A stretch of 64,000 nt of DNA, taken from assembly GCF_030408595.1 (NCBI RefSeq), contig NZ_CP047080.1:423831-487830 (forward strand), written 5' to 3'. Position 1 is the first letter of the stretch. Each line of letters starts with the position of its first letter. The DNA is from Corynebacterium canis (GTDB taxonomy: Bacteria; Actinomycetota; Actinomycetes; Mycobacteriales; Mycobacteriaceae). Positions 3,454 to 62,525 of this stretch are shown piece after piece. The position numbers and the translations under genes are program-made. The notes under the pieces are model-generated. The model saw only the letters and a program-made list of their open reading frames with translations. It made no database searches and was not told the DNA's origin.

Positions 3454-3466
3454 GGCGTCGATAAGC
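3454..3466 (+). repeat. GGCGTCGATAAGC motif, intergenic copy
   Basis: Exact copy of an over-represented 13-mer (see findings), lying 7 bases after the stop of the L,D-transpeptidase gene. Confidence 0.6.
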
Positions 3467-3528
3467 TTAACCAAAGCTAAGGGTAACCCTAATTATACCG
3501 TGAGGGCTTGCTTAGATATTCTTGCGGT

Positions 3529-4332
3529 ATGGCGTTTGAACCACCGCCGAAACGTTGCTCACGCAGCCGGATCGGCACCGAAAACTGCTGCTGGGCGCTT
3601 GCCTTTGTAATCACCATTGTGACCGCGCTGGCGCCGGTGCTGGCGATGCGGCACGACGTAGTAGCCGCCCAACACGTGCAACCCTCGCTGACATTGCCGC
3701 CGCCCAGCGCCCGCACGGATATCGGCGGCGGTATTCAGCGGTCGCGCCTGGACTACGATCCGCCAGCGGTGATTACTACGGGGGAGCTGCGGCACCGCAT
3801 CGACGAGTATTTCGTGCCCGTCAACCTCATCGAGCTTTTCGGCGCCTACGATTCCTGCACGCCCTCGGAAACGCGGGCGTTGGAGCACCTTAACGTGGTG
3901 TGCGTGGGCGATTATCGCAAGGTGAACGAATATGTGGCCGCGCTCGGGTTGCCGCGGCTTGGGGTGATTGATACGGCGCGGGCTACGTTTTCTTATAGTT
4001 CCTACGAGGCGTCCGACGATACGCTTTTCAATGACGTGGAGGGGTGCGCGACGACGATTGACCGCGTCTACCGCGACACCGGCACAACGTTAATCGTTTT
4101 AGAGGAGCCTTGCGACGCCGCGGATAAGCCGTTTCCGGGCGCGTGGGAGGCCGGGCGCACGAGGTTTTCCGCGGTGCATATCATGGACTATCAGCGGGGG
4201 ATCGAGGATTCACAGGGCGTGCGATTGTATCCGACGTTGACGATCGAGGGTTTTGAAAGCCGGGACGCGATCGAGGCGTTGATGCGATATTTTGGGTTGA
4301 AGTTTAAGCCGTTGGGGCCGGTCATGGAGTAG
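3529..4332 (+). CDS. Membrane-anchored protein of unknown function
   Basis: Not recognised. From the ATG at 3529 the protein has 267 residues: a short basic cytosolic start, one transmembrane segment (ALAFVITIVTALAPVLAM, about residues 22-39), then a proline-rich linker and an extracytoplasmic domain. That domain contains four Cys (YDSCTPSET, VVCVGD, VEGCATT, EEPCDAA) that could form two disulphides. A TTG at 3508 is an alternative start, but neither start has a convincing ribosome binding site. Upstream, an AGGGTAACCCT dyad (about 3480-3490) and TATACC (3494-3499) could be an operator and -10. It lies between an L,D-transpeptidase and infA, so a cell-envelope role is possible but is only inference. 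Confidence 0.65.
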   Translation: MAFEPPPKRCSRSRIGTENCCWALAFVITIVTALAPVLAMRHDVVAAQHVQPSLTLPPPSARTDIGGGIQRSRLDYDPPAVITTGELRHRIDEYFVPVNLIELFGAYDSCTPSETRALEHLNVVCVGDYRKVNEYVAALGLPRLGVIDTARATFSYSSYEASDDTLFNDVEGCATTIDRVYRDTGTTLIVLEEPCDAADKPFPGAWEAGRTRFSAVHIMDYQRGIEDSQGVRLYPTLTIEGFESRDAIEALMRYFGLKFKPLGPVME

Positions 4333-4541
4333 CAACCTTGGCTGCGCAATCGGCTTTCCGTATCGCACAATGAAACCTAAGTGTGAGTTTCTTAGTCGGG
4401 GTGTGGCAGCTCACGCCTTGAACATTTGGGGAACGTGCAGGTGGGGTGTAGGGTTACTAGGTGGTGTGAACTGTTTACAGTTCCATCACCGTAGCACTAT
4501 GACACCCATCCGGCAGTCTGAGCCGGGGAAAAGCAGAGGAT

Positions 4542-4763
4542 ATGGCTAAAAAGGAAGGCGCAATCGAGGTAGAGGGACGCATTGTTGAACCTTTGCCAAA
4601 CGCAATGTTCCGTGTCGAGCTTGACAACGGGCACAAAGTCCTTGCTCACATCAGTGGCAAGATGCGCCAGCACTACATCCGTATCCTCCCCGAGGATCGC
4701 GTCGTTGTGGAGCTGTCTCCGTACGACTTGACCCGCGGTCGCATCGTCTACCGCTACAAGTAA
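4542..4763 (+). CDS. infA: Translation initiation factor IF-1
   Basis: Binds the 30S A-site during initiation. The 73-residue single OB-fold protein begins [20 protein letters not shown] and ends [14 protein letters not shown], both typical of IF-1; length is standard. Start ATG at 4542 follows GCAGAGG. It heads the rpsM-rpsK-rpsD-rpoA-rplQ group. In many bacteria rpmJ lies between infA and rpsM; the 180 bases here contain no rpmJ. Confidence 0.97.
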
Positions 4764-4943
4764 GTTTTTTTAAGCCTCCTTATTCCAGGCAGGCGGGGAC
4801 GTCTGCTTTCTTCACCTTCGGCATCGGTGGCTGAAGCCTCGCGTAATCTCGACCCACCGTCCGGCATCCGTCCGGGCAAAGCGTTGTCTGGCGGGGACGA
4901 ATAAGGAGAAAACCACCGTAACAACCGGAAAGGATACTGCCAC

Positions 4944-5312
4944 ATGGCACGCCTTGCTGGAGTTGACCTGCCGCGCAATAAGCGCATGGAGGTCGCTCTC
5001 ACCTACATTTACGGCATCGGCCCCGCCCGTGCCGCCAAGCTGCTGGAAGAGACCGGCATCTCTCCCGACCTGCGTACCGATAACCTGACCGACGAGCAGA
5101 TCGCTGCGCTGCGTGACGTCATCGAAGCCACCTGGAAGGTGGAGGGTGACCTGCGCCGCCAGGTTCAGGCCGATATTCGCCGCAAGATCGAAATTGGTTG
5201 CTATCAGGGGTTGCGTCACCGTCGTGGCCTGCCCGTGCGCGGTCAGCGCACCAAGACCAATGCGCGTACGCGTAAGGGTCCGAAGAAGACGATCGCCGGA
5301 AAGAAGAAGTAA
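4944..5312 (+). CDS. rpsM: 30S ribosomal protein S13
   Basis: Binds the head of the small subunit and contacts the tRNA P-site. The 122-residue protein begins [19 protein letters not shown], has the [10 protein letters not shown] motif near residue 20 and the basic tail [18 protein letters not shown] that reaches the P-site. It starts 180 bases after infA and is followed by rpsK after 3 bases. Confidence 0.97.
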
Positions 5313-5315
5313 AGA

Positions 5316-8039: not shown

Positions 8040-8903
8040 GTGACTGATACTTTCCGCCTGCGCCTAGACCTTTCCTACGACGGCACGGATTTTCATGGGT
8101 GGGCTCGCCAAACGCGGCAAGGCAACGCGGATGAATTGCGCACAGTCCAGGGCACGTTGGAGGAGACGCTCTCGTTGATCCTGCGGGCCCCCGTCCAACT
8201 CACCGTCGCCGGGCGCACGGACGCCGGTGTACATGCGGCGCACCAGGTGGCGCATTGCGATGTCCCGGCGGGTTCGTTAGATCAGCGCAGCATCGACGGG
8301 GATCCCCGCCGGCTGGTTCGCCGCCTGGCCAGGATCCTCCCGGAAGACGTGCGGGTGCGCGATGTGTCCTTCGCCCCGCCCGGATTCGACGCCAGGTTTT
8401 CGGCGTTACGCAGGCATTATGTGTATCGGGTGACCACCCACGAGGCCGGCGCCCTCCCCACGCGCGCCCGGGATACCACGGTGTGGCCCAAGCCGGTGGA
8501 TATGCAGCGGATGCAGCGGGAGGCGGAATCGCTGCTCGGCCTCAATGATTTCGCGGCCTTTTGCAAGCACCGCCCGAACGCCACGACGCTTAGGGATTTG
8601 CAGGTGTTTTCCTGGCGGGATATTTCCACCGTTTGGGAGCCGGAATTATATGAAGCGCATGTTTGTGCAGATGCGTTTTGTTGGTCGATGGTGCGTTCGC
8701 TTGTCGGTGCGTGTTTGGCGGTGGGGGAGGGGCGTCGAAAAGCGGGGTTTGCTGCGGAATTATTGCAGGAGCGGGTGCGTTCTTCGGCGGTTCCGGTGGC
8801 GGCCGCGAAGGGTTTGTCCTTGGTCGGTGTGGACTATCCTGCGGACGAGTGTTTGGCGGAGCGCGCCACGGTAACGCGAAATGTGCGTACCTTGGAAGGT
8901 TGA
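8040..8903 (+). CDS. truA: tRNA pseudouridine(38-40) synthase TruA
   Basis: Isomerises uridines 38-40 of the tRNA anticodon arm. From GTG 8040 it has 287 residues. The catalytic Asp lies in GRTDAGVHA near residue 62; the protein starts [22 protein letters not shown], the usual TruA beginning. In-frame TTG codons at 8004 and 8031 are alternative starts and no ribosome binding site decides between them. The last third has unusually guanine-rich codons. It follows rplQ as in most actinobacteria and precedes the ESX-4 region. Confidence 0.93.
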
Positions 8904-8994: not shown

Positions 8995-11295
8995 ATGGGA
9001 ATCTACGGTGCGGCGTTGGTGGCGGTGGCGGTGTTTACCGTTCCCGGTTTCCTGCTGACGTGGGTTTCTGGGCTGCGGGCTCCATGGGCGGCGGCGGCTG
9101 CGGTCCCGGCAAGTTTTGGAGTGTTCGGGTTCGCCGCGTGGTTTTACGGAATGACGGGGTATTCGTTTACCGGCACCGCAACGTGCATAATTTTGGCGGC
9201 CGCACTCCTGTTAGCCGCCCTGTGGCGCTTCGCGTTTTTTGCTTATCGACGCCGCGCCCGGCGCAACGCCCCACCCGCCCCCGCGCCCGATCCCACGAAA
9301 CCCCAGGTGGTTGCCCCGAAACCGCGGTTCTGGGAAGCCTGGCAGCCGGGTAGTATTATCGACCCCCGCTGGGTGCTGCCCGGGCTCGGTGCCGTGGTGG
9401 GCGCGTGGCTGCTGATGAGCCGCTCGCTGAAATTGCTGGATGAGACCCGTTACGGGATGGATAACATCTACCAAGGGTGGGATGTGCACTGGCACGCCAG
9501 CGTGATCCGCTTTATTTTGGAAACGGGTGTGGCGTCGCCGACGCGCATGGGGGAGCTGCAGAATCTGGAGAGTCAGGCGCCGCTGTACTACCCGTCCGCC
9601 TGGCACGCCGGTGCCTACCTGGTTGCGGAGTACGCCGGGGTGTCGCCGATCGCCGCCACGAATATCACGGCGATCGTGCTGCCCGCGCTGGTCTTGCCCT
9701 TGTCGGTGGGGTTGCTGGCGTGGCGGATTTTGAATAATCGGGGCTTGGCGGCGCAGATCGCGGCGGGCATCGCGGCCATCGCCGTGTATGGCAGCCCGGT
9801 GTTGTTCTGGATCGGTAACTATGTGGGGGCGTGGCCGTATGTGGCGGCGGTAAGCATGGCGGGGATCGTGCTGGCGCTGTATATGTCCGTGCCGGCGGTC
9901 AAGGTGCGGGCGTTCGCGGCGGCGGTGACGTTTATCGGCATGGTGCAGACGCACCCCTCGGCGGCCACCATCGTGATCCTGGGGCTGGCCTGCTGGTGGC
10001 TGCTGTGGTTGGTGTGGGCGCCCTCGAAACGGCCCACCACGCGCAAACAGCATGTGCTGTATCGGCTTTCAGACCTCGGCATGCTGGCCGGTGCCGGCAT
10101 CGTGGCGGTGGCGGTGTTCCTGCCGCAGCTGCTGGCCGGTGCCGGGCAGAGCGAAGAAGTGAAATCCTTTACCGCCACGGAAAACGTTTCCCGCACGCAA
10201 TCCTGGTGGATGGCCATCGAAATGATGACCCGCCACACCGATGAAGCCCCCAATGCCTCCTGGGTGCTGTGGCTGGCCGGGACGGGCGCGGTGCTGGCCC
10301 TGCTGTGGCGCCGTAATCTGTGGCTGCCCGCCTGCTATGCGCTGAGCGTGTGGGTGACCGTGAACTCGCTGCGCCCCTTTGAAAAACCGTGGGGCGAATG
10401 GTTGGAAATGATCGGTGCCCTGCACTACAACACCGCGCACCGCCTGATCATGCCGGTGGCCATGATCACCTTCGCCTACGTGGGCGTATGCATCGCCGTG
10501 GTGCTGCGGCTGGTGCTGCTGGGCCCGTTCCGGCGTTTCCACCAGGTTTCCGTGGCATTGTCCGTGGTCGCGGCGCTGATCGCCGGCTGGTGCATGGCGC
10601 AGCGGGTAACCAAAGACATGGAGGAGGGTTCCGATTGGGCCATTACCTCCGCCCGCGACGGCCGCATGGTCAGCGAAACGGACCTGAAGGCGTACCGCTG
10701 GGTGGCGCGGCAACCCCACGCCTACGATGGGCTGATCCTGTCCAACCCGGCGGAAGGCTCCGGGTGGGCGTACCCGTACAACAACCTGCCCATGCTGTTC
10801 CCGCATTACCTGTGGCCGGCCACGGGGACTAGTTCCGCGACCAATATGGTGTATTGGCACCCCGACAAGCTCGGCATGGGCGCGAATGGGGATCCGGACG
10901 AGCTGAATCTCGCGGATATCGCCGCGCGGCGGCTGAATATCACGTTTATTATCGTTTCCCCGCCGAGCTTTTGGGCCTTCCAGGAGCCGCTGCTGCCCAT
11001 GGAGCAAGGGTTGTGGCACACCGCCGGCGTGACCCCGGTGTATAAAGACCGCCATGTGGTGGTGTTTGCCGTGAATGATCGCTTTACGGACGCCCAATTG
11101 AATCAGATGCGCGAGCGCGGCAATTCCCCGGAGCGGCTGCCGGATCTACCCACAAAGGGCTTGGAAGGCAAGGCGCTCACCCCCGAGGAATACGATCAGC
11201 CCTATTACCATCGCCCCATCAAGGCCCCCTCGCAACCCCCGAATATGGCTGATATCAACGATCACTGGCAGGAGCAGCCCGCCGCTTCCCATTAA
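8995..11295 (+). CDS. Large polytopic membrane protein (DUF6541-like)
   Basis: A 766-residue membrane protein. I count about twelve hydrophobic helices between residues 5 and 540, then a large extracytoplasmic C-terminal domain with a DINDHW end. The overall form (many helices then a soluble domain, acidic loop DETRYGMDNIYQGWDVHWHA) resembles the GT-C-like actinobacterial family annotated DUF6541; the function is unknown. ATG 8995 is the first possible start because TAA at 8986 closes the frame. It lies between truA and eccB and has its own terminator, so it is probably not part of ESX-4. Inference: cell-envelope glycan or lipid work. Confidence 0.7.
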   Translation: MGIYGAALVAVAVFTVPGFLLTWVSGLRAPWAAAAAVPASFGVFGFAAWFYGMTGYSFTGTATCIILAAALLLAALWRFAFFAYRRRARRNAPPAPAPDPTKPQVVAPKPRFWEAWQPGSIIDPRWVLPGLGAVVGAWLLMSRSLKLLDETRYGMDNIYQGWDVHWHASVIRFILETGVASPTRMGELQNLESQAPLYYPSAWHAGAYLVAEYAGVSPIAATNITAIVLPALVLPLSVGLLAWRILNNRGLAAQIAAGIAAIAVYGSPVLFWIGNYVGAWPYVAAVSMAGIVLALYMSVPAVKVRAFAAAVTFIGMVQTHPSAATIVILGLACWWLLWLVWAPSKRPTTRKQHVLYRLSDLGMLAGAGIVAVAVFLPQLLAGAGQSEEVKSFTATENVSRTQSWWMAIEMMTRHTDEAPNASWVLWLAGTGAVLALLWRRNLWLPACYALSVWVTVNSLRPFEKPWGEWLEMIGALHYNTAHRLIMPVAMITFAYVGVCIAVVLRLVLLGPFRRFHQVSVALSVVAALIAGWCMAQRVTKDMEEGSDWAITSARDGRMVSETDLKAYRWVARQPHAYDGLILSNPAEGSGWAYPYNNLPMLFPHYLWPATGTSSATNMVYWHPDKLGMGANGDPDELNLADIAARRLNITFIIVSPPSFWAFQEPLLPMEQGLWHTAGVTPVYKDRHVVVFAVNDRFTDAQLNQMRERGNSPERLPDLPTKGLEGKALTPEEYDQPYYHRPIKAPSQPPNMADINDHWQEQPAASH

Positions 11296-11767: not shown

Positions 11768-13051
11768 GTGGACTATCAGCGGATCCTATCGCCAACAACA
11801 CAGGCCCAGGTCTCTGGCCATAGGTTTTTCATACGCCGCATTGAGCATGGCTTGGTGCTCGGGGATACCCGCATGATCCACGATCCCCTGGGCCGTCGCC
11901 GCCGCGCCGCGGTGTTCGGCGGTGTGGCCTGTCTGCTCCTGTGCCTGGGTGCCGGGGCGCTCGCCTTGTTCGTCCCGCGCATTGACCCCGGCGCCGCCCC
12001 CATCGTGGTCGCCGAGACCGGCGCATTGTACGTTCGCATAGACGATCGGCTGCACCCCGTGTTCAACCTTACGTCCGCACAATTGATCGTGGGCGCCCCC
12101 GAGCAACCCGCCCGCGCCGCCACCGAAGTCCTCGCCGATATGCCGCGCGGCATCCCCATCGGGCTTATCGACGCCCCCGGTGTGATCGACACCGACCCAA
12201 CCCACCGTTGGCACTGGTCGGCGTGCGCTTTGGGCGAGGGAATCCAGGTGCGCGCCGCAGATCAGGTCCCGAAGGCCATCGCCGGTGGGGAGGCCATATT
12301 TACGGAGGCCGCCGGCATCTCCTATATTGTGACCTCGCAGGGCCGTCAGGCGCTCCCGCCCGGCGACACTCCGGAGGGCCGCGTGGTGCGCCGCCGCCTA
12401 GGCATTACCGCGAAAACCCCGGTGTGGAGCACGTCCCCGGAGATGTTGAATACCATCGCGGCGCAACCCGAGGTGCGCATCCCGCCCGCCGGTGAACTTT
12501 GGGAAACCGGCGACGGCGGGTCTTTCTTTGTGCACGATCAGGCCGTGGTGCGCCTGACCGATGTGCAGCGCGATATCCTCCTTGACCTGGGTTTCCGCAG
12601 CATCCCCGTCGATCGCGCCACCCCGCACAATTTCGATGACGCTAAAGATTATGTCGAGCTCCCCAGCGCCGCACCGCGGACGTGGCTTGACCCCACCGAG
12701 CGCGCCGTGTGCGCCAGCGGTGAGGCTGGCGATATTTCGCTTATCGACGCCCCGTCGGCAGGCACCGCGCTCAGCGAAACGCTCAGCTATCACGGCCCCG
12801 GCCTTGGGCTCCCCGTGGATACCGGAAACGGTTGGATCGTGGTCAGCGATTACGGCACCCGGCACACCATTGCCGATAAGGAGGCCCTTGCGGCGCTCGG
12901 GATCGAGACGCCCGGCCCGGCCCCGTGGGCGATCATCAAGCTGTTGCCCGAGGGCATCGCATTGGACCGGGATCAGGCTCTCGCGCCCCTGGCTATCGGC
13001 GCCGACGCAACAAGAGCGCCGAAAGCGCAGCCCCAACCAGCAGCGCCATAA
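11768..13051 (+). CDS. eccB4: ESX-4 type VII secretion protein EccB
   Basis: Membrane-anchored, mainly extracytoplasmic core component of the type VII translocon. From GTG 11768 (GGGGAGATTTCA upstream) it has 427 residues: a short cytosolic segment with the family start (MDYQRILSPTTQAQVSGHRF), one transmembrane helix near residues 45-68, then repeat domains outside. The pair CALGEG near 152 and CASGEAGD near 317 gives the conserved disulphide Cys. It matches mycobacterial Rv3450c by position. Its 3' end overlaps the convergent mycP by 59 bases. The GLIDAP and SLIDAP peptides are encoded by the over-represented 13-mer. Confidence 0.92.
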   Translation: MDYQRILSPTTQAQVSGHRFFIRRIEHGLVLGDTRMIHDPLGRRRRAAVFGGVACLLLCLGAGALALFVPRIDPGAAPIVVAETGALYVRIDDRLHPVFNLTSAQLIVGAPEQPARAATEVLADMPRGIPIGLIDAPGVIDTDPTHRWHWSACALGEGIQVRAADQVPKAIAGGEAIFTEAAGISYIVTSQGRQALPPGDTPEGRVVRRRLGITAKTPVWSTSPEMLNTIAAQPEVRIPPAGELWETGDGGSFFVHDQAVVRLTDVQRDILLDLGFRSIPVDRATPHNFDDAKDYVELPSAAPRTWLDPTERAVCASGEAGDISLIDAPSAGTALSETLSYHGPGLGLPVDTGNGWIVVSDYGTRHTIADKEALAALGIETPGPAPWAIIKLLPEGIALDRDQALAPLAIGADATRAPKAQPQPAAP

Positions 13052-14147: not shown

Positions 14148-15478
14148 CCCAACCCCCGAATTGCCACAAACAACCCCGCCACGTGCGCCGCCAAAGGCAA
14201 CGCCACCGCAATGGCAAAAGCCTCCAAACGCTCGAACCAACACACCAGCGTAGGCGTAAACTCCGGGACCCGGCCAGCCCACAACACGCAACTCAAACAA
14301 CCCGCCACCAGCAAGAATCCCACCAGCGGAAGGGTGGACACGCTACACACCAAGCACATTAGGGCCCATACCCACAACGCCCAAGTGGACCACGGGGAAC
14401 GATGCCGAATGGCATGGAACCCCACCGCCGCGCTCGTCGCCGCGCACAATGCGGCCACATACGGTGCGGAACCCGGAGGACACAGCACGCACGCTGCGGC
14501 GATGCCAGCGCAACCGGAAAAGCTAAGGCCGAGCACCATGCCGTCGAGAAGCAATACAGCGAGCCGCGCACTGGTTTGGGTCTGGGCGGGCGGCGACCCC
14601 GAATCAGCAACCGTAAAATCCTCCCCGGCGGAGGGCAAACGCGGCACCGAACACCCCGCAATATGCACAGCAAGCGACGGCACCACAATCAACGACACCA
14701 AGGCAAAACCAACGCACGCGGCGGCCGGGCCAGCCAACCACAAATCATGCGGGGCCAAGCCAAACGCCGCCACCCCGCACAACAACACAAACAACACCGT
14801 GCCCCAACACGCATTAATCATCGCGGGACAATACGAAACCACCTGGACCGCGACACACGCGCACGCCATCGCCGCCACCGCCGTCAACCCCGCAACGAGC
14901 AAAGCCCCGCGACCATCATCGCCGGACGTCACATACGTCCACGCCGCGCACCCCGCCGGGATCGGAGTACCGGAGGCCAACACCCACCGAGAAACCGGCG
15001 AACTCAAGGCGAAACGCGTGGCCAGGGCCAATAACGTCACGCACGCCAATGCGCCGGAGGCAAACGCCAACCACTGGTGGTGCGGAAGCGTCCAACACCA
15101 CCACACAAAACCCACCAAACCCGCGCCCGTCGCAGCGGCGCTTAATTGCGTGGCAGGGTGCGGGAGCGGTACCGAAACCAACGCCTCCGCGGTATCAACC
15201 ACTAACGGTTCCGGAGTGTCCGCAAACGGGCGGAGCACCACGATATCGCCGTGCGTGAGGGGCAGCGCGGACAATGGGGCGGTGGCATCCAACACAGTGC
15301 CGGCCGTGGTGGTCGGCTGCCAAGGCGCGGAAATGCTAGGGGCGTGTAGTAAGTCTAAAACCTCTCCCAAGATTTCAGCGACGCTCGAATGCGCAGGCAG
15401 CGCAAGGTCCGCTTGTCTCCGGTGCGTGCCAGGCGCCTCCAATCGGACGGTCAGATGCAGGATGGTGTTCATGGTCAT
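14144..15478 (-). CDS. eccD4: ESX-4 membrane channel protein EccD
   Basis: Polytopic component of the type VII membrane complex. The start at 15478 is preceded by GAGGGGGCGTT and gives 444 residues beginning MTMNTILHLTVRLEAPGTHR. The first 90 residues form the ubiquitin-like domain (TLH-type beta strands, DIVVLRP), followed by about eleven transmembrane helices rich in Ala, Cys and Trp. It is co-transcribed with mycP and diverges from eccC across a 433-base gap, exactly as Rv3448 does. Confidence 0.92.
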   Translation of the reverse strand: MTMNTILHLTVRLEAPGTHRRQADLALPAHSSVAEILGEVLDLLHAPSISAPWQPTTTAGTVLDATAPLSALPLTHGDIVVLRPFADTPEPLVVDTAEALVSVPLPHPATQLSAAATGAGLVGFVWWCWTLPHHQWLAFASGALACVTLLALATRFALSSPVSRWVLASGTPIPAGCAAWTYVTSGDDGRGALLVAGLTAVAAMACACVAVQVVSYCPAMINACWGTVLFVLLCGVAAFGLAPHDLWLAGPAAACVGFALVSLIVVPSLAVHIAGCSVPRLPSAGEDFTVADSGSPPAQTQTSARLAVLLLDGMVLGLSFSGCAGIAAACVLCPPGSAPYVAALCAATSAAVGFHAIRHRSPWSTWALWVWALMCLVCSVSTLPLVGFLLVAGCLSCVLWAGRVPEFTPTLVCWFERLEAFAIAVALPLAAHVAGLFVAIRGLG

Positions 15479-15911: not shown

Positions 15912-18900
15912 GTGGGGAACACCGCATTTTCGCAGCGTCCGGGCGTGCGTGAACGTATCGTGCCGCAGTTAAGAATGTCCGAGCGCGATCCCGCTCCGCC
16001 CCTTCCCGCTGGCACTCTCACCCCGGATCCCGTCCCGCCAGCTGTGCGGCCTCAGCCGCAGCCGCTGCTGCGCATGCTGATGCCGTTGGTCATGGTGTCG
16101 GCGGTGGTAGGCATGGTTGCGTTAATGGTGATCACCGGCCGAGCGCACACCGGCGCAGGTTTGAATCCCGGCATGATTATGTTCCCGGTGATGATGGGTA
16201 TGGGCATGCTCGCCATGTTCTTGCCCCAATCCGCGGAAGACACCGATGAGCAGCGGCGAGTTTATATGCGCCACCTGGATGCACTCCGCGCGCAAGCAAA
16301 CGAGAATGCCCACGCGCAGCGCGCCTACGAGCTGTATCGCGCCCCGGATCCTAGGCACCTCGTTTCGCTGGTTTCCACCCGCCGGCTGTGGGAGCGTGCC
16401 GCAGAGGACCCGGACGCCTTGCAGGTCCGCATCGGCCTCGGCCCGGCGGCGTTGTGCACTCCCGTCGAGGTCCCAGATTCGGGTGCCGCCGAGGATTTAG
16501 ACCCTGTGTGTGCGGTGTCGCTTCGCCGCACGGTCCACGAGGTCGGTTCCGTTCCCATGGTTCCGGTTCTGATTCAGCTTGGGCCTTTCCGTTTCCTTGC
16601 GTTTTCCGGCCCGTCCGCCGCTGATGTTGCCCGCGCGCTGGTGGCGCAATTGGTGTTCCATCATGGCCCAGAGCTGGTTTCGGTGATGGCGTTGGGCGCG
16701 GGCTGGGAGTGGCTGAAGTGGCTCCCGCACACCCGTTCGCCGGAGGCGGCGTTGCACCGGGTGCTGGTGGTGGATTCGGCGACTGCGGACGGCGCGGAGG
16801 ATTGCCTGGACGATCCTCGTTTTACCACCATCATCGACGTCGGTTCTCGCCCCCACAGCGAGCTCGGGGCCCGCGCACAGGCGGAGGGTTTGGCGTTTCA
16901 TTGTGATGCTGACCTGCGTATTCATACAGTGGAGGGGGAGGAGGGCATAGGCGTGCCCGACTGCATGCGCGTCGCCGAGTCGCTGGTGTTGGCGCGCGCT
17001 CTCGCCGCTTGTCGACGTCCCGCCACCGCCGACCGCACCAACCTACCGCGCGATTTCCTCGGTCTGATTGGCCTGAGCCCCGCCGAGTTAGAACATTCTG
17101 ACGGGTTGTGGGAGCATTGCGCCCGGTTTGGGCATTTGACCGTTCCCATTGGCGTGGCGGAGGATTCCGGGGCCGCCGTGCTATTGGATCTAAAGGAATC
17201 CGCCTTGGGCGGCGTGGGTCCGCATGGCTTGTGTATCGGCGCTACCGGCAGCGGGAAGTCTGAGTTATTGAAAACGCTGGTGTTGGCATTGGCGGCCACC
17301 CATGATCCGGACGAATTGAATTTCGTCCTGGTGGATTTTAAGGGTGGCGCCACTTTCCTCGGCGTCGAACGTTTGCCGCACACCAGCGCCGTGATCACCA
17401 ATCTTGCGGAGGAGCAGGCCTTGGTGGATCGCATGCATGATGCCATCAGCGGGGAAATGAATCGCCGCCAGGAGGTGCTGCGGAAGGCCGGCAAGTTCGC
17501 CAATGTTACCGACTATAACGCGGCGCGCGCGGCTGGCCGCTCCGATCTTGCCCCGTTGCCGTCCCTGGTGATCGTGGTGGATGAGTTTTCGGAGCTGCTC
17601 GGCCAACACCCCGATTTCGCGGATTTGTTCGTTGCCGTGGGTCGGCTTGGGCGGTCCCTGCATATGCACCTCTTGTTGGCCAGCCAGCGCCTGGAGGAGG
17701 GCCGGCTGCGGGGTTTGGATTCGCATTTATCGTACCGCATCGGTTTGAAAACCTTTTCTGCCGCCGAGTCCCGCCAAGTGTTGGGTGTCGTGGATGCGTA
17801 TCATCTGCCGGCTCGCCCGGGCGCGGGCTATATGCGTACCGATTCGGATTCGTTGGTGCGCTTTCAGGCCGCGTACGTTTCCGGTCGGTTGCCCGCGTTG
17901 CCTGTCGCGGGCGTCGATAAGAAACTTTCGGTGCGGCGTTTCCATCAGTGGATCGTGCCGGAAGTGGAGGACGCTCCCCGTAAGCCGCAGTATCACCCGA
18001 CCGCCATGCTTCTCGACGCCGTGGTGGCCGCCGCCCAACGCTCAGCTCGCGGCAAGCACGCGCACCGGATTTGGTTGCCGCCCCTGCCCGCGGAGATCCC
18101 ATTGGCCAGTATCGTCGCGCGCGTCGGGCATCTCGGCTGCGTCCTAGGGCTGATCGACCGCCCTTTTCAGCAACGCCAGGACCCCTTTATCCTGCAGTTT
18201 TCGGGATCCGGAGGGCACGCCGCGCTGTGCGGTAGCCCACGCACGGGAAAGACCACCGCCCTGCGTTCCTTGGTGCTGTCGCTGGCGCTCACGCATGGCA
18301 CCGATCAGCTGCGTTTTTATATTTTGGATCTGGGTGGCGCCGAGGGCCTGGCCGCGCTGGCGAAGCTGCCGCACGTGGCGGGCGTCGCTGGGCGCAAGGA
18401 CCCCGAACGCGTGCGGCGCGTGGTGGATGAGGTGCTCGGTTTGGTGAGCGTGCCGGAGCCGCGCCATACCTTTTTGGTGGTCGATGGCTGGCATGTGATC
18501 GCCAACGAGTTCGATGATCTGGTGGAGTCCGTTACCCGCATCGCCGCCGATGGATTGGCCGCGCGCGTGCACTTGGTGGTGAGCACTGCGCGGTGGACCA
18601 ATATTCGGCCGGCTGTGCGAGACCTGCTGCAGCAACGCGTGGAGCTGCGGCTCGGCGAGCCGATGGATTCCTTGATTGATAGGAAGGCCCAGCTGAAGCT
18701 GCCGAATCTGCCGGGGCGCGGGCTGACCGCAGAGGGGGAGCCCATGCTGATCGCGCTCACCGGGAATCAGGACGTGCACCACGTGTGCCAGCAGCTTGCC
18801 GACCAGCCCCGGGTGCCCGCCTTGCGTATCCTGCCGCAGCACATCGCCTTGTCGGCGCTCCCGCCCACAAGCGCGCCGGGCATTCCCTTCGCGGTGGGCG

Positions 18901-35739: not shown

Positions 35740-35752
35740 GGCGTCGATAAGC
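35740..35752 (+). repeat. GGCGTCGATAAGC motif, intergenic copy
   Basis: Exact copy of the over-represented 13-mer, 10 bases before the left end of IS copy 2. A GCAACC/GGTTGC hairpin lies just upstream (about 35686-35720) and may end the surface-protein transcript. Confidence 0.6.
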
Positions 35753-41751: not shown

Positions 41752-41764
41752 GGCGTCGATAAGC
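41752..41764 (+). repeat. GGCGTCGATAAGC motif, intergenic copy
   Basis: Exact 13-mer copy in the roughly 258-base gap between the hydrolase gene and glmS; a GTTGTGTGCAAC palindrome lies about 15 bases upstream. Confidence 0.6.
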
Positions 41765-43725: not shown

Positions 43726-43742
43726 CGCTTTTCGACGCCCAG

Positions 43743-49198: not shown

Positions 49199-50728
49199 TC
49201 ATGAGCAGTGCAGGTCGCGGCGTCGATAAGCGATGGCGCCTACGAGCGCGCAGCCGAAGCCGATGCACACAAGCGTCACCGCCGCAAACGTATGTTCGTG
49301 CGCTGGCCAGGCGAACAGGGAGGCGTCTAGGAGCCAGGAGGGGAAATCCATAAGCTCGCCGAAAAAGGTAATAAAGCCGGACGCCGCAACCGGTACCCAC
49401 GCTAGTGCTGACCAGCGCAAAGAGCAGCCCGTACACAGCGTGGCAAACCCGGCGGCCGCGACGGCTGGGGGCGATTGGTCGAGGATTGCTTGCCATGCGG
49501 CTTCGAACACCTCTGCGTCGGTGGAGGCGTCGGCAACAATGGCGGAAAGGGGAGCGATAATGGCGACGATGCACAGTGTGACCGCCACCGCCGTGCCGAA
49601 ATCGCTAAGCAGCGGGCGATGGCGCGGATTCCCATTAACCACCTCTTGCGTGACGACGCCGCTCCGCTCATCGCGCGCCGTAGCCAACGCGAGCTGCACC
49701 GCGGCGCAGGCAATCAGGATGCCCACGGGTGTGGCGATAAAGCGCAAATAGCTCGCCTCGGTCTCGGCATCGCCGGTGATGGATTGCATAAGTGCGGCGG
49801 TATTTGGGGACCCTTCAAGCAGGGAATTCATCTCGCCGGTGAGTGCGAATAGCGCGAGGGTGATGGCGGCGACGGCTACGAACCAATTTGCGATGACGCT
49901 GCGCTGGTTTCGCACGCGGAACAGGTACGGGGTGCGGAGCGTCCAGGTGGCATGGAGATCGCGCGGAACCAACAGCGGCGCGTAGCAGACCAGCGTAATC
50001 CCGAGCGCGGCGGCGAGCGGCCAGGCGTCGTTAAGTTCGAACGGTTTGACTAGGTCGCGCCAAGCGAGCGGGGAGCCCCAGCGCAGGCGGGGGAAATCCC
50101 ACACGTCCGCAATCACGCGGAGGAAAAACGCCGCAGCCAGGGCAATCAACGCCGCGCTGCGCGCCTGGCGGGCGGTCTGGGACCATTGCGCGCACAGCAT
50201 GCCGATGCCGCCGAAACACCCCGTGGCCAGCGTCACCGTCTTGCCGAGCAGCAGGCAACCATAGAAATCGAAACCCTCCAGGTGAAGGTTCTGCGCATAC
50301 AACGCGCACGTGCTGGCCGCGCCCAAGAGGCAACACGTGAGCAATACCGTGGCCGCCGCCGCCAGGTTCGGGGTCGCCCGGCCCATGCCCGTCACGCGCA
50401 CCAACTCGAGGATCCCGTCTTCTTCGGCGGCGCGCGTGAGGCGGATGGCAAGGAGCAGGGACATGATGCAGCCCAGGAGGATCACCCACATCCCGGTCTC
50501 CCACATGGTGAAACTGGGGATGGTGAGCGGGTCCGGGACCACGCCGTACAGCACCCGCAGGCCGAGCTGGCCGCGCATCGGATCGGCGAGGCGTTTCAGC
50601 TCCTCGGCGTTCGGGTACGTGTCGTGGTACGCGTGCGGAACCACCGCAATCAGGGCGGTCAGCGGTACAATCCACGCGGCGAGGAACCAGCGGGTGGAAC
50701 GGAAATTACAGCGGATAAGCTCGAACAT
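49199..50728 (-). CDS. ABC-2 type exporter permease 1
   Basis: 509 residues from ATG 50728, the codon six bases after the MerR-type -10; longer frames would include the promoter. About twelve hydrophobic helices; N-terminal MFELIRCNFRSTRWFLAAWI and the loop RLTRAAEEDGILELVRVTGM near 88 match permease 2. It has no ATPase gene of its own and probably uses the one at 53152. It is transcribed separately, its promoter overlapping the 3' end of merR2. Substrate unknown; this exporter type commonly handles antibiotics or lipids. Confidence 0.85.
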   Translation of the reverse strand: MFELIRCNFRSTRWFLAAWIVPLTALIAVVPHAYHDTYPNAEELKRLADPMRGQLGLRVLYGVVPDPLTIPSFTMWETGMWVILLGCIMSLLLAIRLTRAAEEDGILELVRVTGMGRATPNLAAAATVLLTCCLLGAASTCALYAQNLHLEGFDFYGCLLLGKTVTLATGCFGGIGMLCAQWSQTARQARSAALIALAAAFFLRVIADVWDFPRLRWGSPLAWRDLVKPFELNDAWPLAAALGITLVCYAPLLVPRDLHATWTLRTPYLFRVRNQRSVIANWFVAVAAITLALFALTGEMNSLLEGSPNTAALMQSITGDAETEASYLRFIATPVGILIACAAVQLALATARDERSGVVTQEVVNGNPRHRPLLSDFGTAVAVTLCIVAIIAPLSAIVADASTDAEVFEAAWQAILDQSPPAVAAAGFATLCTGCSLRWSALAWVPVAASGFITFFGELMDFPSWLLDASLFAWPAHEHTFAAVTLVCIGFGCALVGAIAYRRRDLHCS

Positions 50729-54141: not shown

Positions 54142-55557
54142 ATGCGCCCCCTTTACACAGTTGAACAGGTCCGTGCCGCGGAGGCGCCTCTCCTCGCGGC
54201 GCAGCAACGCCCAGACGAACTCATGCGCAAGGCCGCGCACCAGGTCGCCCGCGCCGCCCAAGACATGCTCGATAGTAAGTATGGTCGAATCCTGGTGCTC
54301 GCGGGTTCGGGCGGAAACGGCGGAGACGCGCTCTATGCGGCCACCGAACTTAAAGCCGCCTCGCTCGAAGCGGTCCTGATGGGCGGCCGCGTCCACCAGC
54401 CCGCGTTAGCTGCGTTCGAGGCTGCGGGAGGGACGGTCGTCGAAAAGCCGCTAGGTGAATACGCGCTGGTTATCGACGGTATTACCGGTATCGGTGGTAC
54501 GGGAGCGCTGCGCGATTGGGCGGCGGGGATAGTCGCAAGCATTGATGCGCCGGTGCTTTCCGTGGATATCCCCTCGGGCGTGGATGCGGATACCGGTGCC
54601 ACGCATGGGGCGCACGTCAAGGCTCGCCGCACCATTACCTTCAGCGGACTGAGATACGCACATGCGTTTGCCTCGGCGTGCGGCGAGGTGACCGTGGCCG
54701 ACATCGGACTGGAGTTCGAACCCGCCGACGCCTTTTTGTGGAACGCCCTCACGGATAACCTCCCGCTAAAGCTTGAACCCGGCGAATCCGACGATAAATA
54801 CACCGGCGGCGTCGTGGGCATTTGCGCTGGCAGCACGCAATACCCCGGCGCCGGGATCATGTGTTCGATCGCTGCGGTGCGGGCCACCCCCAGCATGGTG
54901 CGCTATATCGGCGATATCTGCCCGCTCCCCGAAATCGTCCCGCACCCCAGCATCGCCGAAGCCGCCCGCGTGCAAGCCTGGGTTTACGGCCCTGGGCGGG
55001 GCGAACGCGACGAACTCGCCGAATTGCTCGCCCGCCCGGAAGCGTTGCTTATCGACGCCTCCGGGCTTACCGTACTCGCCCGCGACGCCGCACTCCGCGA
55101 GCAGCTGATCGAACGCAAATTCCCCACGGTGCTGACGCCGCACGTCGGTGAGTTCGTACAACTGGTCGAGGGGTTCCGCTTGCCCGTAAACCTCGAGGAT
55201 TGGGTCGGTTCGGCCCGCGCGCTCGCCGTGCACACCGGCACCACCGTCCTGCTCAAGGGCCGACGCACGGTGATCACCGACGGCGTGAATCCCACGAACA
55301 TTGTGGACCTCGGCACCTCCTGGGCCGCTACCCCCGGATCCGGGGATGTGCTTTCCGGCCTCGCCGGCGCCTGGCTGGCCACCCCGCTGCTGGACAAATG
55401 GGGTGCCGTCAAGGTGATGACCCTCGCCGCGCTTATCCACGGGCAGGCCGCGGAAATCGCCGCCCGCACCGAATACGGCCACGCGCCGACCTCAGCCTCG
55501 CTGATCATCGACGCGATCCGCCCCGCTACTGCTCGAGTATGTGGTCCCGCTGGGTAA
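54142..55557 (+). CDS. nnr: Bifunctional NAD(P)HX epimerase / ADP-dependent dehydratase
   Basis: Repairs hydrated NADH and NADPH. 471 residues: NnrE domain (1-215) with ILVLAGSGGNGGDALYAA near 51, catalytic-type Asp in LVIDGITGIGGTG near 110 and DIPSGVDADTG near 143; NnrD domain (220-471) with GVVGICAGSTQYPGA near 223 and the ATP/ADP-site TPGSGDVLSG near 396. TAGGAGT precedes the ATG. Its 3' end is overlapped by a small gene on the other strand. LLIDASG near 303 is encoded by the over-represented 13-mer. Confidence 0.95.
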   Translation: MRPLYTVEQVRAAEAPLLAAQQRPDELMRKAAHQVARAAQDMLDSKYGRILVLAGSGGNGGDALYAATELKAASLEAVLMGGRVHQPALAAFEAAGGTVVEKPLGEYALVIDGITGIGGTGALRDWAAGIVASIDAPVLSVDIPSGVDADTGATHGAHVKARRTITFSGLRYAHAFASACGEVTVADIGLEFEPADAFLWNALTDNLPLKLEPGESDDKYTGGVVGICAGSTQYPGAGIMCSIAAVRATPSMVRYIGDICPLPEIVPHPSIAEAARVQAWVYGPGRGERDELAELLARPEALLIDASGLTVLARDAALREQLIERKFPTVLTPHVGEFVQLVEGFRLPVNLEDWVGSARALAVHTGTTVLLKGRRTVITDGVNPTNIVDLGTSWAATPGSGDVLSGLAGAWLATPLLDKWGAVKVMTLAALIHGQAAEIAARTEYGHAPTSASLIIDAIRPATARVCGPAG

Positions 55558-55720: not shown

Positions 55721-56836
55721 ATGAACTTGCTCACCATCACCATTGATTTAGACGCCATCGCGCACAACACCCGCCTGCTCAAACAAAAGGCTGCGGGGGC
55801 GCAATTAATGTGCGTGGTCAAGGCTGATGGATATAATCATGGTGCGGCGCGGGTGGCAGCAACGATGGCCGCCCACGGGGCCGACCAGTTCGGCGTGGCC
55901 ACGTTGGCGGAGGCGTTGGCGCTGCGGGAAGCGGGAATTACACAGCCGATCCTTGCGTGGATTTGGACGCCCGATCAGGACGTCGTAGCTGCTCTTGATG
56001 CTGGCATCGAGCTGGGTGTTCCGAGCCTTGCCCACGCCGCGCACTTGGTGTCCCTGCGCCGCCCCGCCCGCGTGAGCGTGAAATTGGATACGGCGATGAA
56101 CCGGTCAGGCATTGACGTTGCGGAATGGGATACCGCGTTCCGCATGCTTATCGACGCCCCGCACCTCACCGTCACCGGACTCTTCTCCCATCTAGCATGC
56201 GCGGACGAGCCGGAAAACCCCCTCAATGATCAGCAGGTTGCGCTGTTCCGCAAGGCAATCGACCAAGCGCGCGGTGCGGGCCTGGATGTGCCCGTGAATC
56301 ACCTGGTCAACTCCCCGGGGTTGCTGACCCGGCCGGACGCCTACTTTGATATGGTCCGCCCGGGTATCGCGCTCTACGGGTACAGCCCGATCCCGGGTTT
56401 GAGTGCGGCTGCGGAAGGGCTGCGCCCCGCCATGACCTGGGAGTCCCGGATTACCGTGGTGAAAGAGATCCACGCTGGTGAAGGCGTGAGCTATGGGCAA
56501 ACCTGGCGCGCGCCAAGCGATGGATACACCGCCGTGGTCGCCTGCGGTTACGCCGACGGCCTGCCCCGAGCCCTGCAAGGATCGCTCGAAGTTTCGATCA
56601 ATGGCCGCCGCTACCCGCAGGTTGGCCGCGTCTGCATGGACCAAATCGTCCTGTGGCTAGGCGCTGGTGGGGAAGAGGCTCCGCCTGTCCAGCCCGGCGA
56701 CCGCGCCATTCTGTTCGGCCCCGCCGAGACCGGCGCCCTGACCGCCGATGATTTCGCCGCCGCCCTGGGCACCATAAACTATGAAGTGATCTGCAGCCCA
56801 CACGGCCGCACCACCCGCGCCTACCTGGGAGGATAA
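55721..56836 (+). CDS. alr: Alanine racemase
   Basis: PLP enzyme making D-alanine for peptidoglycan. 371 residues. The PLP Lys is in VVKADGYNHGA near 35 (most family members have KADAYGHG), the second catalytic Tyr in GVSYGQTW near 262, and the RxxxR/H-type segment MVRPGIALYG near 209. It starts at ATG 55721 without a clear ribosome binding site. tsaE follows after one base. The MLIDAPH peptide near 146 is encoded by the over-represented 13-mer. Confidence 0.95.
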   Translation: MNLLTITIDLDAIAHNTRLLKQKAAGAQLMCVVKADGYNHGAARVAATMAAHGADQFGVATLAEALALREAGITQPILAWIWTPDQDVVAALDAGIELGVPSLAHAAHLVSLRRPARVSVKLDTAMNRSGIDVAEWDTAFRMLIDAPHLTVTGLFSHLACADEPENPLNDQQVALFRKAIDQARGAGLDVPVNHLVNSPGLLTRPDAYFDMVRPGIALYGYSPIPGLSAAAEGLRPAMTWESRITVVKEIHAGEGVSYGQTWRAPSDGYTAVVACGYADGLPRALQGSLEVSINGRRYPQVGRVCMDQIVLWLGAGGEEAPPVQPGDRAILFGPAETGALTADDFAAALGTINYEVICSPHGRTTRAYLGG

Positions 56837-58654: not shown

Positions 58655-58664
58655 GCTGTTAGCC

Positions 58665-59764: not shown

Positions 59765-60801
59765 ATAGCACAATAGTTCTCGGTGTGGAATCTTCTTGCG
59801 ATGAAACCGGGGTGGGCATTGTGCGCGTCACGTGGGGTGACGGCGCGCCCCAATACGAGGTGCTTGCCGATGTCGTGGCTAGCTCCATGGAACAGCATGC
59901 GCGCTTCGGTGGCGTGGTTCCGGAGATCGCATCCCGGGCGCACCTAGAATCCATCGTGCCGGTGATGCGGGCCGCATTGGCCGAGGCGGGAATCGAACGT
60001 CCGGACGTGGTTGCCGCTACCATCGGCCCCGGTCTGGCAGGCGCGCTGCTGGTGGGTGCCAGCGCCGCCAAGGCTTATGCCGCCGCCTGGGGCGTGCCCT
60101 TCTACGGGGTGAATCACCTCGGCGGGCACGTGGCCGTCGCGGGTCTGGAGGGCGACGCCCTGGAGCACGCGGTGGCGCTATTGGTGTCCGGCGGGCACAC
60201 CCAATTGCTGGAGGTGCGTGGTCCGGAGCTGCGGGAACTCGGCTCCACCCTGGACGATGCCGCGGGCGAAGCCTATGACAAGGTGGCCCGCTTGCTGCGG
60301 TTGGGGTACCCGGGCGGGCCGGTGGTGGATAAGTTGGCGCGGCGGGGCGCGGTGACCATCGACTTCCCGCGCGGGCTGATGAAAAAGTCCGATTCGCGCT
60401 ATGACTTTTCCTTTTCCGGTTTAAAAACCGCCGTGGCGCGCTATGTGGAAGCGGCCGAACGCGCGGGCGAGGTGGTTTCGGTAGAGGACGTGTGCGCTTC
60501 CTTCCAGGAGGCGGTGTGCGACGTGCTTACCAAAAAGGCCATCTGGGCGTGCCAGGATGTGGGCGCCGAGGTGCTCTTGCTGGGCGGCGGGGTGGCCGCG
60601 AATTCCCGGTTGCGGGAGCTGGCCGCCGAACGCTGCCGCTCCGCGGGGGTGCGATTGCGTGTTCCATCCTTCAAACTCTGCACCGACAATGGGGTGATGA
60701 TCGCCACCTACGCCGCCCAACGCGTCGCCGCCGGTGCCGCGCCCTCCTCCCTGGCGGTGGGTTGCGATCCCGCCTTGGAGGTGGAGGTCGGCCAGCTGTA
60801 G
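59761..60801 (+). CDS. tsaD: tRNA threonylcarbamoyladenosine transferase TsaD
   Basis: Transfers the threonylcarbamoyl group to A37 of tRNA; metal-containing ASKHA protein. 346 residues: [15 protein letters not shown] near 6, metal-binding His pair in [12 protein letters not shown] near 120, [12 protein letters not shown] near 140, and [12 protein letters not shown] near 279. ATG 59761 overlaps the rimI stop. Confidence 0.96.
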
Positions 60802-60809
60802 CCCCGGAG

Positions 60810-61640
60810 TTAGCAGCAGTCCCAGGTATACAGCACGTTATCGAAGTTCAGGGCGGCCAGATCGGAAGGCTTGATAAAGAAATTCGCTATTCCGGAATCG
60901 CCGAACATAATGGTCACTTGGGAATCCGCCGAATCCTCGGTATCCACCTGAAGCAGCAATTCGTACTTTTCTTCGCCCGCCGCGGCGGCCTCTTCGCTGA
61001 GGTCGGTGCGCGGATCCCCTTGGGTGAAATAAGCCCAGCCGCCGCCGAAAATGGTATTGGTCGGGTTGAGGCCGAGCACGTCATACAGCGCGTCTTCGGT
61101 TTCTTCCGTGGCGAGCTCGGCGGGCAGCGTAAGATCCTCCACCTCGTAATCCTCCGAGGTGGGGAATTGGTCGAACAATTGCCCGTGCACCTCGAAGTAG
61201 CCGCCCCACAGCGCATCGGTCTGGTTCTTGAGCGTGCCTTCGAGGTGCCCGGCCGCCAATTCCGCCGCCGGGATATAGCGGACATGGTGCCCGGATTCGA
61301 AGCCATAGCAATCATCATCGCCGTGGAAGAATTGCAGCATGCCATCCGTAGGGTACCCGGGGCGCGCGGGGAGTTCCGCCAGGTTGAGCTGGGCAAGCAG
61401 CATCATCTTCTTGCCCTGCTTATCGGTTGGCCAGGGATGGTTCTTCGTAATCAGCGCGGGGCCGCCGATACGGGACCCGGTCAGGCTCGCGGTTGCGGTG
61501 AGCGTATCCACGCTCGTATCCTCCACGGCCACTCCCGTCAGGCGCAGCATGGTGGTGCGCCGACAATTGGACGTTAAGAAATCGCGGTAGCGCTCGAACT
61601 CTGCGGGGATTTCAGGGCGAAAAACTTCAGCGGATGTCAT
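60810..61640 (-). CDS. DUF1963 (YwqG-like) protein A
   Basis: 276 residues from ATG 61640 (AAGG eight bases upstream). DUF1963 pattern: GSRIGGPALITKNHPWP near 58, LLAQLNLAELP near 82, MLQFFHGDDDCYGF near 103, FGGGWAYFTQGDPR near 200 and the final IMFGDSGIANFFIKPSDL with LYTWDCC end. Soluble, no catalytic motif known. It is paralogous to the next gene on the same strand and convergent with tsaD. Such proteins often occur as tandem copies; role unknown. Confidence 0.8.
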   Translation of the reverse strand: MTSAEVFRPEIPAEFERYRDFLTSNCRRTTMLRLTGVAVEDTSVDTLTATASLTGSRIGGPALITKNHPWPTDKQGKKMMLLAQLNLAELPARPGYPTDGMLQFFHGDDDCYGFESGHHVRYIPAAELAAGHLEGTLKNQTDALWGGYFEVHGQLFDQFPTSEDYEVEDLTLPAELATEETEDALYDVLGLNPTNTIFGGGWAYFTQGDPRTDLSEEAAAAGEEKYELLLQVDTEDSADSQVTIMFGDSGIANFFIKPSDLAALNFDNVLYTWDCC

Positions 61641-61688
61641 GGTTGAAAACCTTACATAACGCCCATGACACCCCGCGCTCATGTTCGA

Positions 61689-62525
61689 TCAGTAGCAGTC
61701 CCAGTAATAGGCCACCTCGCTGAAGTCCCACCGCTCAAGGTCTTCGGGGCGGATAAAAAAGGTGGCAAACCCGCAATCGCCCCATTGGATGCGGGGCTTA
61801 TTGCGCGGCCCGTGATTCGAACGGATCTGCAGCAGGGGCCGGTGGCTATGGCAGAAGCCTACGGGATCTCGCTGCGCAAACGCGGCCCAACCGCCACCAA
61901 AAACGGCGGGTGGGCCGATGTGGGGCAGTTCAGACGTGGCGTCGATAAGCCCGTTGCTGACGCTGGGGTCGGACCACACCATGTTTACAAAGGTGCTGTC
62001 GTGCCGGCTGGGGTATTGGTCGAAAGGCTTGGCGGACAGCTCGAAAAAGCCGTTTTCAATCGTGTTGGTTTGGGTTTTAATCCCGCCCAGCAGCTGGCCG
62101 TTTAAGTATTCCTTGACGGGGATATAACGGACGCAGGAGTTGTGCGGGTTCGCGTAATTGTGCGTATCAAAGTCTGCGTTGTCGATGCCGAAGTAGCCGT
62201 GATCGCCGATAAAAAACTGCAGCAGGCCCTCGGAGCGGAAACCCTCCAGCGGCGGCATATCCGCCAAATTTATCTGGGCCACAAAGAGCATGCGCCGCCC
62301 GAGCCGGTCGCGCGGCCAGGGGTGTTCCTTGGTAATAAAGGCGGCGCCGCCGAGGCGGGACCCCGTCGGGTTGGCCACGATTCGCTTGGGTATGTGGTTT
62401 TCATTTTGCACGGTCATGCCGTGGGGAAATAGCGCCGCCACGCGCCGCGCGTGGGATTGCAGGTAGGGCCGGTAGGGCTCGAGGTTTGCCGGTAGTTTCA
62501 CCTGGAATGCTTCATCAGTGCTCAT
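61689..62525 (-). CDS. DUF1963 (YwqG-like) protein B
   Basis: 278 residues from ATG 62525 (GTG 62534 possible). Same landmarks as protein [18 protein letters not shown] near 55, [12 protein letters not shown] near 81, [13 protein letters not shown] near 101, [13 protein letters not shown] near 210, [18 protein letters not shown] and YYWDCY at the end. The two genes are a tandem duplication, now well diverged. GLIDAT near 193 is encoded by the over-represented 13-mer (61938-61950). Confidence 0.8.

Follow-up and report, generated by a model that had tools for sequence, protein, structure and literature searches.

A word repeated throughout most Corynebacterium chromosomes as a putative DNA uptake sequence

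The 64-kb window, meaning the whole stretch of Corynebacterium canis DNA that was analysed, carries an over-represented 13-mer whose copies lie between genes and within genes, including two sites in an EccB-like gene and others in genes for alanine racemase and an NAD(P)H-hydrate dehydratase/YjeF protein. Eleven exact copies are present, six on the plus strand and five on the minus strand, as a reading made from the sequence alone had counted; 100 dinucleotide shuffles of the window yielded none, which bears out the accompanying claim that chance is an improbable source. Matches with at most two mismatches number 38, against 1.97 expected. Ten of the eleven exact coordinates in that earlier reading were right, and the copy placed at 56156 begins at 56146; its seven one-mismatch copies all exist, although the one placed at 19730 lies at 19720 and the window holds 11 of them rather than seven, those at 5963, 18008, 47650 and 58967 having been absent from its list. 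By the gene calls of this analysis, three exact copies are intergenic (3454, 35740 and 41752), and the coding copies are read in differing frames as LIDA, AYRRR or ASIS, both as previously proposed. The exact copies, and the other copies of a shorter core described below, are as follows.

3454..3466, plus strand: exact 13-mer, intergenic (window scan and gene calls)
8731..8743, plus strand: core CGTCGANAAGC with leading GG, A at the free position
9241..9253, minus strand: exact 13-mer, antisense, AYRRR, in gene 8995-11295 (DUF6541)
12163..12175, minus strand: exact 13-mer, antisense, LIDA, in the EccB-like gene
12739..12751, minus strand: exact 13-mer, antisense, LIDA, in the EccB-like gene
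14542..14552, plus strand: core CGTCGANAAGC
17007..17017, minus strand: core CGTCGANAAGC
18008..18020, minus strand: core CGTCGANAAGC with leading GG
26516..26528, minus strand: core CGTCGANAAGC with leading GG
29348..29360, plus strand: exact 13-mer, sense, ASIS, in a GHL15-like gene
35740..35752, plus strand: exact 13-mer, intergenic
40520..40532, plus strand: core CGTCGANAAGC with leading GG
41752..41764, plus strand: exact 13-mer, intergenic
43727..43739, minus strand: core CGTCGANAAGC with leading GG, outside called genes
47652..47662, plus strand: core CGTCGANAAGC
49219..49231, plus strand: exact 13-mer, antisense, AYRRR, in gene 49199-50728 (no Pfam match), near its 3' end
54438..54448, plus strand: core CGTCGANAAGC
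55047..55059, minus strand: exact 13-mer, antisense, LIDA, in the gene for NAD(P)H-hydrate dehydratase/YjeF
56146..56158, minus strand: exact 13-mer, antisense, LIDA, in the alanine racemase gene
61938..61950, plus strand: exact 13-mer, antisense, LIDA, in a DUF1963 gene
63894..63904, plus strand: core CGTCGANAAGC

Across the 3.05-Mb C. canis chromosome (G000) the 13-mer occurs 198 times, and the reversed pattern used as a control not once, so the genome-wide count that the sequence-only reading had proposed as a check exceeds the background; the orientation is as balanced as it had appeared in the window (103 forward, 95 reverse). The 13-mer is not the best unit, however. The 11-mer core CGTCGANAAGC, whose upstream extension varies between genomes, serves better, with 592 copies (305:287 by orientation) against 20 for its control, and the word may be described as 10 fixed bases with a flank preference, the upstream flank being G-rich. 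Coding sequence tolerates it: of 82 C. canis cores examined, 69 fall in called genes and span five of the six frame classes. When synonymous codons were shuffled 200 times within the 363 kb of called genes of a 444-kb sample, 0.245 coding 13-mers were expected (largest of 200: 2) where 26 are observed. For the core, synonymous shuffles gave 2.2 coding copies (largest of 200: 7) where 69 are observed. Neither of the two outcomes that the sequence-only reading had named as refuting it was seen.

Members of the genus Corynebacterium inhabit human skin, soil and food. At least 100 cores CGTCGANAAGC are found in 103 of 151 Corynebacterium genomes, whereas the reversed control gives 3-36 per genome; a second dialect, GCATCGANAAGC, predominates in nine genomes, six show a weak signal and 33 show neither. 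The richest genomes hold 1351 (G136), 1242 (G026) and 1188 (G075) cores, the last also having the highest 13-mer count of all; the genomes recognised by their plasmids as C. efficiens (G145) and C. deserti (G117) hold 885 and 982. Other genera of the family contain two exact 13-mers at most each, and some other genera show a modest core excess (e.g., 145 vs 24 in G250). In a tree of 60 genomes, read without support values, the dialects partition by clade, mixed genomes occur, and whole clades lack the motif. Conservation at an orthologous position was followed at a single site in lepA, where the peptide LVDA is kept in 42 of 60 loci: the dialect-1 word is present in 21 of 29 dialect-1 genomes and in one of eight other motif-poor genomes, and the dialect-2 word in all three dialect-2 genomes, in the mixed genome G005 and in G084, which has a weak dialect-2 signal. 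The word at this site thus matches the local dialect, and together with the coding excess over synonymous shuffles this upholds the earlier suggestion that the constraint acts on the DNA. A third dialect is likely in G048, in which G or T replaces the A before the free position in 43 of the 90 one-mismatch matches listed, a count biased by the one-mismatch screen. No further dialect was seen by eye in k-mer scans of 75-95 kb each from G120, G132, G082, G084, G039 and G107; AGTTATCCACA, which had seemed enriched in the G082 and G084 samples and was considered as a far dialect, proved to be a low-copy word found in all 17 genomes tested (3 to 40 copies; 22 in C. canis).

Along the C. canis chromosome, an even spread of 192 of the 198 13-mer sites is not rejected and clustering at ori or ter is not seen (KS p = 0.12), with a mild leading-strand excess of 113 to 79 (59%, p = 0.017). 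Pairs less than 300 bp apart number 6 in all against 3.6 expected, and two inverted pairs form perfect 13-bp hairpins, which may correspond to the terminator-like inverted pairs of uptake sequences. Small contigs, from which up to 20 kb each was taken (17 contigs, 13 motif-bearing genomes), contain 3 cores where 77 are expected; all eight of those looked up are named Corynebacterium plasmids, and the chromosomal word is close to absent from the plasmid contigs examined. A binding site for a protein that organises or segregates the chromosome, comparable to parS, matS, Noc sites or KOPS, would account for this chromosomal confinement, for the occurrence in most of the genus and for a constraint at the DNA level. 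This role, raised among others by the sequence-only reading, is nevertheless weakened by the even spread and slight strand bias, as well as by copy numbers of hundreds to more than a thousand (mainly within genes in C. canis), by the dispensability of the motif in whole clades, and by the parallel change in an essential protein that each dialect switch would need; we regard it as unlikely, if the strongest of the alternatives.

A little less probable still is a signal read during recombination in the manner of Chi, or a self mark that shields the chromosome from a nuclease or plasmid defence. Both the density of the word, which resembles that of Chi, and its scarcity on plasmid contigs are compatible with an intracellular mark. 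Chi sites, however, are short words with a strong bias in orientation relative to replication, while the word described here is longer, and 59% of its 192 C. canis sites lie on the leading strand; the same likeness (dense, confined to the chromosome) and the same differences, together with its loss from whole clades, apply when it is set against other architecture-imparting words. Hairpin pairs and dialects are, moreover, described for uptake sequences in two papers (PMC3630211; PMC12616744).

A replication control or titration site akin to the DnaA box is very improbable. The DnaA box is TTNTCCACA, which the reverse complement of the core, TTNTCGACG, resembles, but resemblance is all that recommends this reading: the conserved stretch exceeds nine bases, and separate DnaA-box-like words, the AGTTATCCACA mentioned above, are present in 17 of 17 genomes whether or not these carry the motif. 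Least probable of all, and refuted as a general account, are two further readings, an artefact of codon or peptide usage and a mobile-repeat core: LIDA is the reading of 18 of the 26 coding 13-mers in the 444-kb sample and, among the first 30 forward copies, three carry the same duplicated segment, but codon preference as a cause is ruled out by the synonymous shuffles, the intergenic copies and the other reading frames, and the mobile repeat is contradicted by the unrelated flanks of the other 27 copies and by core-poor plasmid contigs (34 copies remained in a listing from which identical 63-base flanks were removed, L007 having fallen out because its flanks are those of L006).

Gonococci and Haemophilus choose DNA for uptake by means of self-recognition tags. 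Of the four roles guessed at from the window, an uptake-like sequence fits best with the enrichment, both orientations, even spread, dialects and plasmid scarcity, and the motif is probably a DNA uptake sequence (a self tag of the DUS/USS type) of the genus Corynebacterium. Such sequences are known from two proteobacterial families alone, Neisseriaceae and Pasteurellaceae, according to a 2025 paper (PMC12616744). In Neisseriaceae the DUS, which the minor pilin ComP recognises, has many copies (thousands), clade-following dialects and both coding and intergenic sites, all like the Corynebacterium word, as well as inverted or dyad pairs, to which the two C. canis hairpin pairs may correspond (PMC3630211; PMC12616744); the Corynebacterium word differs in its sequence, its Gram-positive actinobacterial host, its Tad-type pilus locus and the putative status of its uptake role. 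The USS of Pasteurellaceae is likewise enriched, with a short invariant core, a flank preference and two dialects, but differs in sequence and host group, and its extended flank is AT-rich whereas the upstream flank here is G-rich (PMC12616744). Also comparable is the natural transformation of Micrococcus luteus, an actinobacterium of a different family, whose competence involves TadA ATPases and ComEA; the text of that study does not contain the phrase "specific sequence", which does not exclude sequence specificity (PMC6667448).

Genes for such a pathway are widespread. The ComEC domain is present in 151 of 151 genomes, the pilus ATPase domain T2SSE is near universal (148 of 151 at E <= 0.001; 145 above the curated cut-off), and a ComEA-like gene adjoins ComEC in 60 of 60 loci. 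Their presence does not track that of the motif, as the 33 motif-free genomes all have ComEC and all except G024 have the pilus ATPase domain. Five of the six genomes that lack T2SSE or show it only below the cut-off bear the motif (G021, G075, G092, G113 and G119); this may reflect assembly gaps, all six being drafts of 30-380 contigs. The sole association found is with ComEC frame length, 96 short and 15 long in motif genomes against 6 and 27 in genomes with none (p = 4e-13, ignoring kinship, with few events in the tree behind it); lengths are those of open frames, some overstated (e.g., 727 for a 556-aa ORF in G144), and G001, for which no length was available, was left out. When one long and two short ComEC proteins were compared with Pfam, the start of the competence domain in the long protein was shifted by about 115 residues towards the C-terminus, and none of the three showed the nuclease domain that the long frames had at first been supposed to carry. 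Candidate surface proteins at the loci comprise TadE/TadF-like proteins and ComEA, none of which stands out as the receptor: tandem ComEA is present in C. canis alone among 60 loci, and inspection by eye found TadE- and TadF-like proteins in loci both with and without the motif. None of the literature matches listed (15 of 127 in one search) described natural transformation of a Corynebacterium.

For an uptake sequence in this setting, we infer that the cells would be competent, that uptake would depend on the motif, and that the reader would be the surface DNA-binding part of a Tad/Flp-type pilus or ComEA, favouring DNA with the core CGTCGANAAGC. Pilus retraction and ComEA would then import the bound DNA, ComEC would let one strand through, and the resident allele would be swapped out by homologous recombination; through such replacement by preferred imported DNA, copies of the word would accumulate in the chromosome wherever coding permits. 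On balance, although with somewhat less assurance than the uptake role itself, the word appears to represent a third, independently evolved self-recognition system for transformation and the first in Gram-positives, with a receptor linked to the Tad pilus or ComEA, dialects that act as mating-type-like barriers, and one large clade that has lost the preference.

If true, uptake words would have originated independently in Actinobacteria, many corynebacteria would be predicted to be naturally transformable, and the word, added to DNA, would offer a simple genetic handle in an industrial genus. The question of why uptake words exist would also become testable in a new lineage, loss of the trait included.

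Within the window, the word GGCGTCGATAAGC is present in 11 exact copies, as the sequence-only reading had counted, and is absent from 100 dinucleotide shuffles; with up to two mismatches allowed, 38 matches are found against 1.97 expected, two of the coordinates given in that reading being slightly off and some one-mismatch copies having been overlooked. Across the single chromosome of Corynebacterium canis (3,045,310 bases; window at 423831-487830), 198 exact copies were counted, as compared with none for the reversed 13-mer used as a control, and their division into 103 forward and 95 reverse upholds the balanced orientation proposed for the window. The gene content of the window looked Corynebacterium-like, with type VII secretion genes at positions 11768-19553 (EccB confirmed by Pfam; a subtilisin-like mycosin and an EccC-like ATPase recognized by inspection).

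A sample of 444 kb from this genome (the window and 19 of 20 further stretches, the twentieth overlapping the window; genes called with a simple codon model) contains 31 exact 13-mers, of which 26 are genic, four are intergenic, and one lies at an edge. The 26 coding copies are read as LIDA (18), ASIS (four), AYRRR (three), and GVDK (one). A codon effect as the source of the word is ruled out by synonymous-codon shuffling of the called genes, which yields 0.245 expected coding copies (maximum two in 200 shuffles) versus 26 counted; the earlier suggestion that constraint acts on the DNA, rather than through LIDA codon preference, is thus borne out. Among 72 one-mismatch variants, 47 change position 8 (T to any base, 31/72) or position 10 (chiefly A to C, 16/72), numbered from 0. 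Upstream of 34 distinct exact copies CGS is favoured, and the downstream preference is slight. When 60 genomes are compared, the leading GG varies by species and the part held in common is CGTCGANAAGC; this core, rather than the 13-mer, is the natural unit. The sample holds 82 cores, 80 with a G two bases upstream and 69 within called genes (2.2 expected under synonymous shuffles), and the window holds 21, or about one per 3 kb.

Readings of the motif as a segregation, Chi, or DnaA site or as a mobile repeat each lack some expected feature; a modification or defence mark would be a further candidate. For 192 of the 198 sites, with the chromosome start placed at dnaA by inspection and the terminus by GC skew, the spread along the chromosome is even (KS p = 0.12), 113 copies are leading versus 79 lagging (p = 0.017), and six pairs lie less than 300 bases apart versus 3.6 expected, which makes pairing no more than a possible tendency; two inverted pairs, spaced 19 and 26 bases, form perfect 13-bp hairpins. 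The flanks of the first 30 forward copies are unrelated in 27, the others (in stretches L006, L007, and L021) sharing a duplicated segment in which the upstream 40 bases are identical and L006 and L007 agree on both sides. Other repeats were also observed: in the sample (L161-L180 and the window), a separate family of hairpin-like words of the type ATCTGCCTCAGGCAGAT (one 14-mer in 20 copies, another in 12) and 23 copies of the AT-rich TGTAAAAAATATCG, which may be a CRISPR repeat; and, in genomes G053, G084, and G006, the DnaA-box-like AGTTATCCACA, frequently in close pairs at chromosomal sites beyond the origin.

The exact 13-mer is present in 125 of 151 Corynebacterium genomes (0-328 copies each), and in a family-wide scan of 301 genomes (30 Corynebacterium, 271 from 30 other genera) the other genera never exceeded two copies. 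The core reaches at least 100 copies in 103 of the 151 (maximum 1351; reversed controls 3-36). Core counts for 140 genomes from outside the genus lie between 4 (G166) and 147 (G185, control 48), and because a few of these, larger ones, exceed the control several-fold (145 vs 24 in G250), a weak background exists outside Corynebacterium. A second dialect, GCATCGANAAGC, attains at least 40 copies in nine genomes whose dialect-1 cores number below 100, and at least 20 copies of it are also carried by 14 genomes of dialect 1; six of the 151 are weak (50-99 cores), 33 have neither dialect, and G048 appears to employ yet another form, in which the free position is preceded by G or T. Exact matches to CGNGGCGTCGATAAGC in named genomes number at least 120 stretches; among the 80 matches listed, 34 are titled Corynebacterium (C. 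glaucum, C. pollutisoli, C. hylobatis, C. riegelii, C. tuberculostearicum, and others) and the remainder are scattered across many taxa.

In a midpoint-rooted tree of 60 genomes based on five proteins, read irrespective of support values, ten motif-free genomes fall in one clade, the remaining motif-poor genomes (G039, G041, G120, G132, G082, and G084) are dispersed, and the dialect-2 genomes G073, G094, G144, and G150 cluster with the mixed G005 and G012. The tree gives the impression of an ancient trait that has since been lost in places and whose dialect was switched within a single clade, possibly with reversion. A lepA site encoding LVDA, present in 42 of 60 loci, reads CTTGTCGACGC in 21 of 29 dialect-1 genomes (not in eight) and CTTGTCGATGC in dialect-2 G073, G094, and G150, mixed G005, and G084, which is classed as "none" with 21 dialect-2 copies; among eight other motif-poor genomes (G010, G017, G041, G066, G072, G107, G120, and G132), the dialect-1 word occurs in G072 only and the dialect-2 word in none. 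The peptide is constant here while the DNA word tracks the dialect of the genome, and proA sites are likewise recurrent.

Small contigs, at least eight of them plasmids, are poor in the motif: in the opening stretch (at most 20 kb) of each of 17 such contigs, drawn from 13 motif-bearing genomes, three cores were found versus 77 expected from genome-average density with rounded genome sizes. All eight of the 17 contigs looked up are identical, over the stretch compared, to named plasmids of equal length (C. mustelae, C. occultum, C. efficiens, C. atrinae, C. deserti, C. aurimucosum, C. atypicum, and C. maris). The C. atypicum plasmid (NZ_CP008945.1), with no core in the 20 kb scanned, carries phage capsid, portal, and tail genes and is therefore probably a phage-plasmid.

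Candidate uptake machinery is widespread: the ComEC domain occurs in 151 of 151 Corynebacterium genomes, the pilus ATPase domain T2SSE in 148 at E <= 0.001 and in 145 above the curated cut-off (the other six, G021, G024, G075, G092, G113, and G119, are all drafts, five of them motif-bearing), and a ComEA-like gene adjoins ComEC in 60 of 60 loci. C. canis has tandem comEA-like genes (227 and 169 aa; L201:8389-9720) preceding comEC, an arrangement seen in none of the 59 other loci. The pilus locus of C. atrinae (G029) encodes a Flp-like pilin matching DUF4244, a TadE-like protein recognized by inspection without a Pfam match, and a protein scoring just below a Tad family cut-off. Motif-free genomes possess ComEC, ComEA-like, and pilus genes too; the ComEC frame is short in 96 and long in 15 motif-bearing genomes versus six and 27 motif-free ones (p = 4e-13, kinship of genomes ignored).

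The 13-mer was found in neither orientation in the literature searched (few subscription papers, no preprints), and no such word is reported among the matches listed for Corynebacterium with uptake sequences, natural transformation, or competence. According to PMC12616744, uptake words are known from Neisseriaceae and Pasteurellaceae only. Dialects and dyad pairs are among the features of uptake sequences described in PMC3630211, and transformation in Micrococcus luteus has been linked to tadA and comEA (PMC6667448). The testable genomic hallmarks of an uptake sequence are here either present or undecided, and the preferred reading of the motif, a probable one on the genomic patterns, is that of a putative DNA uptake sequence.
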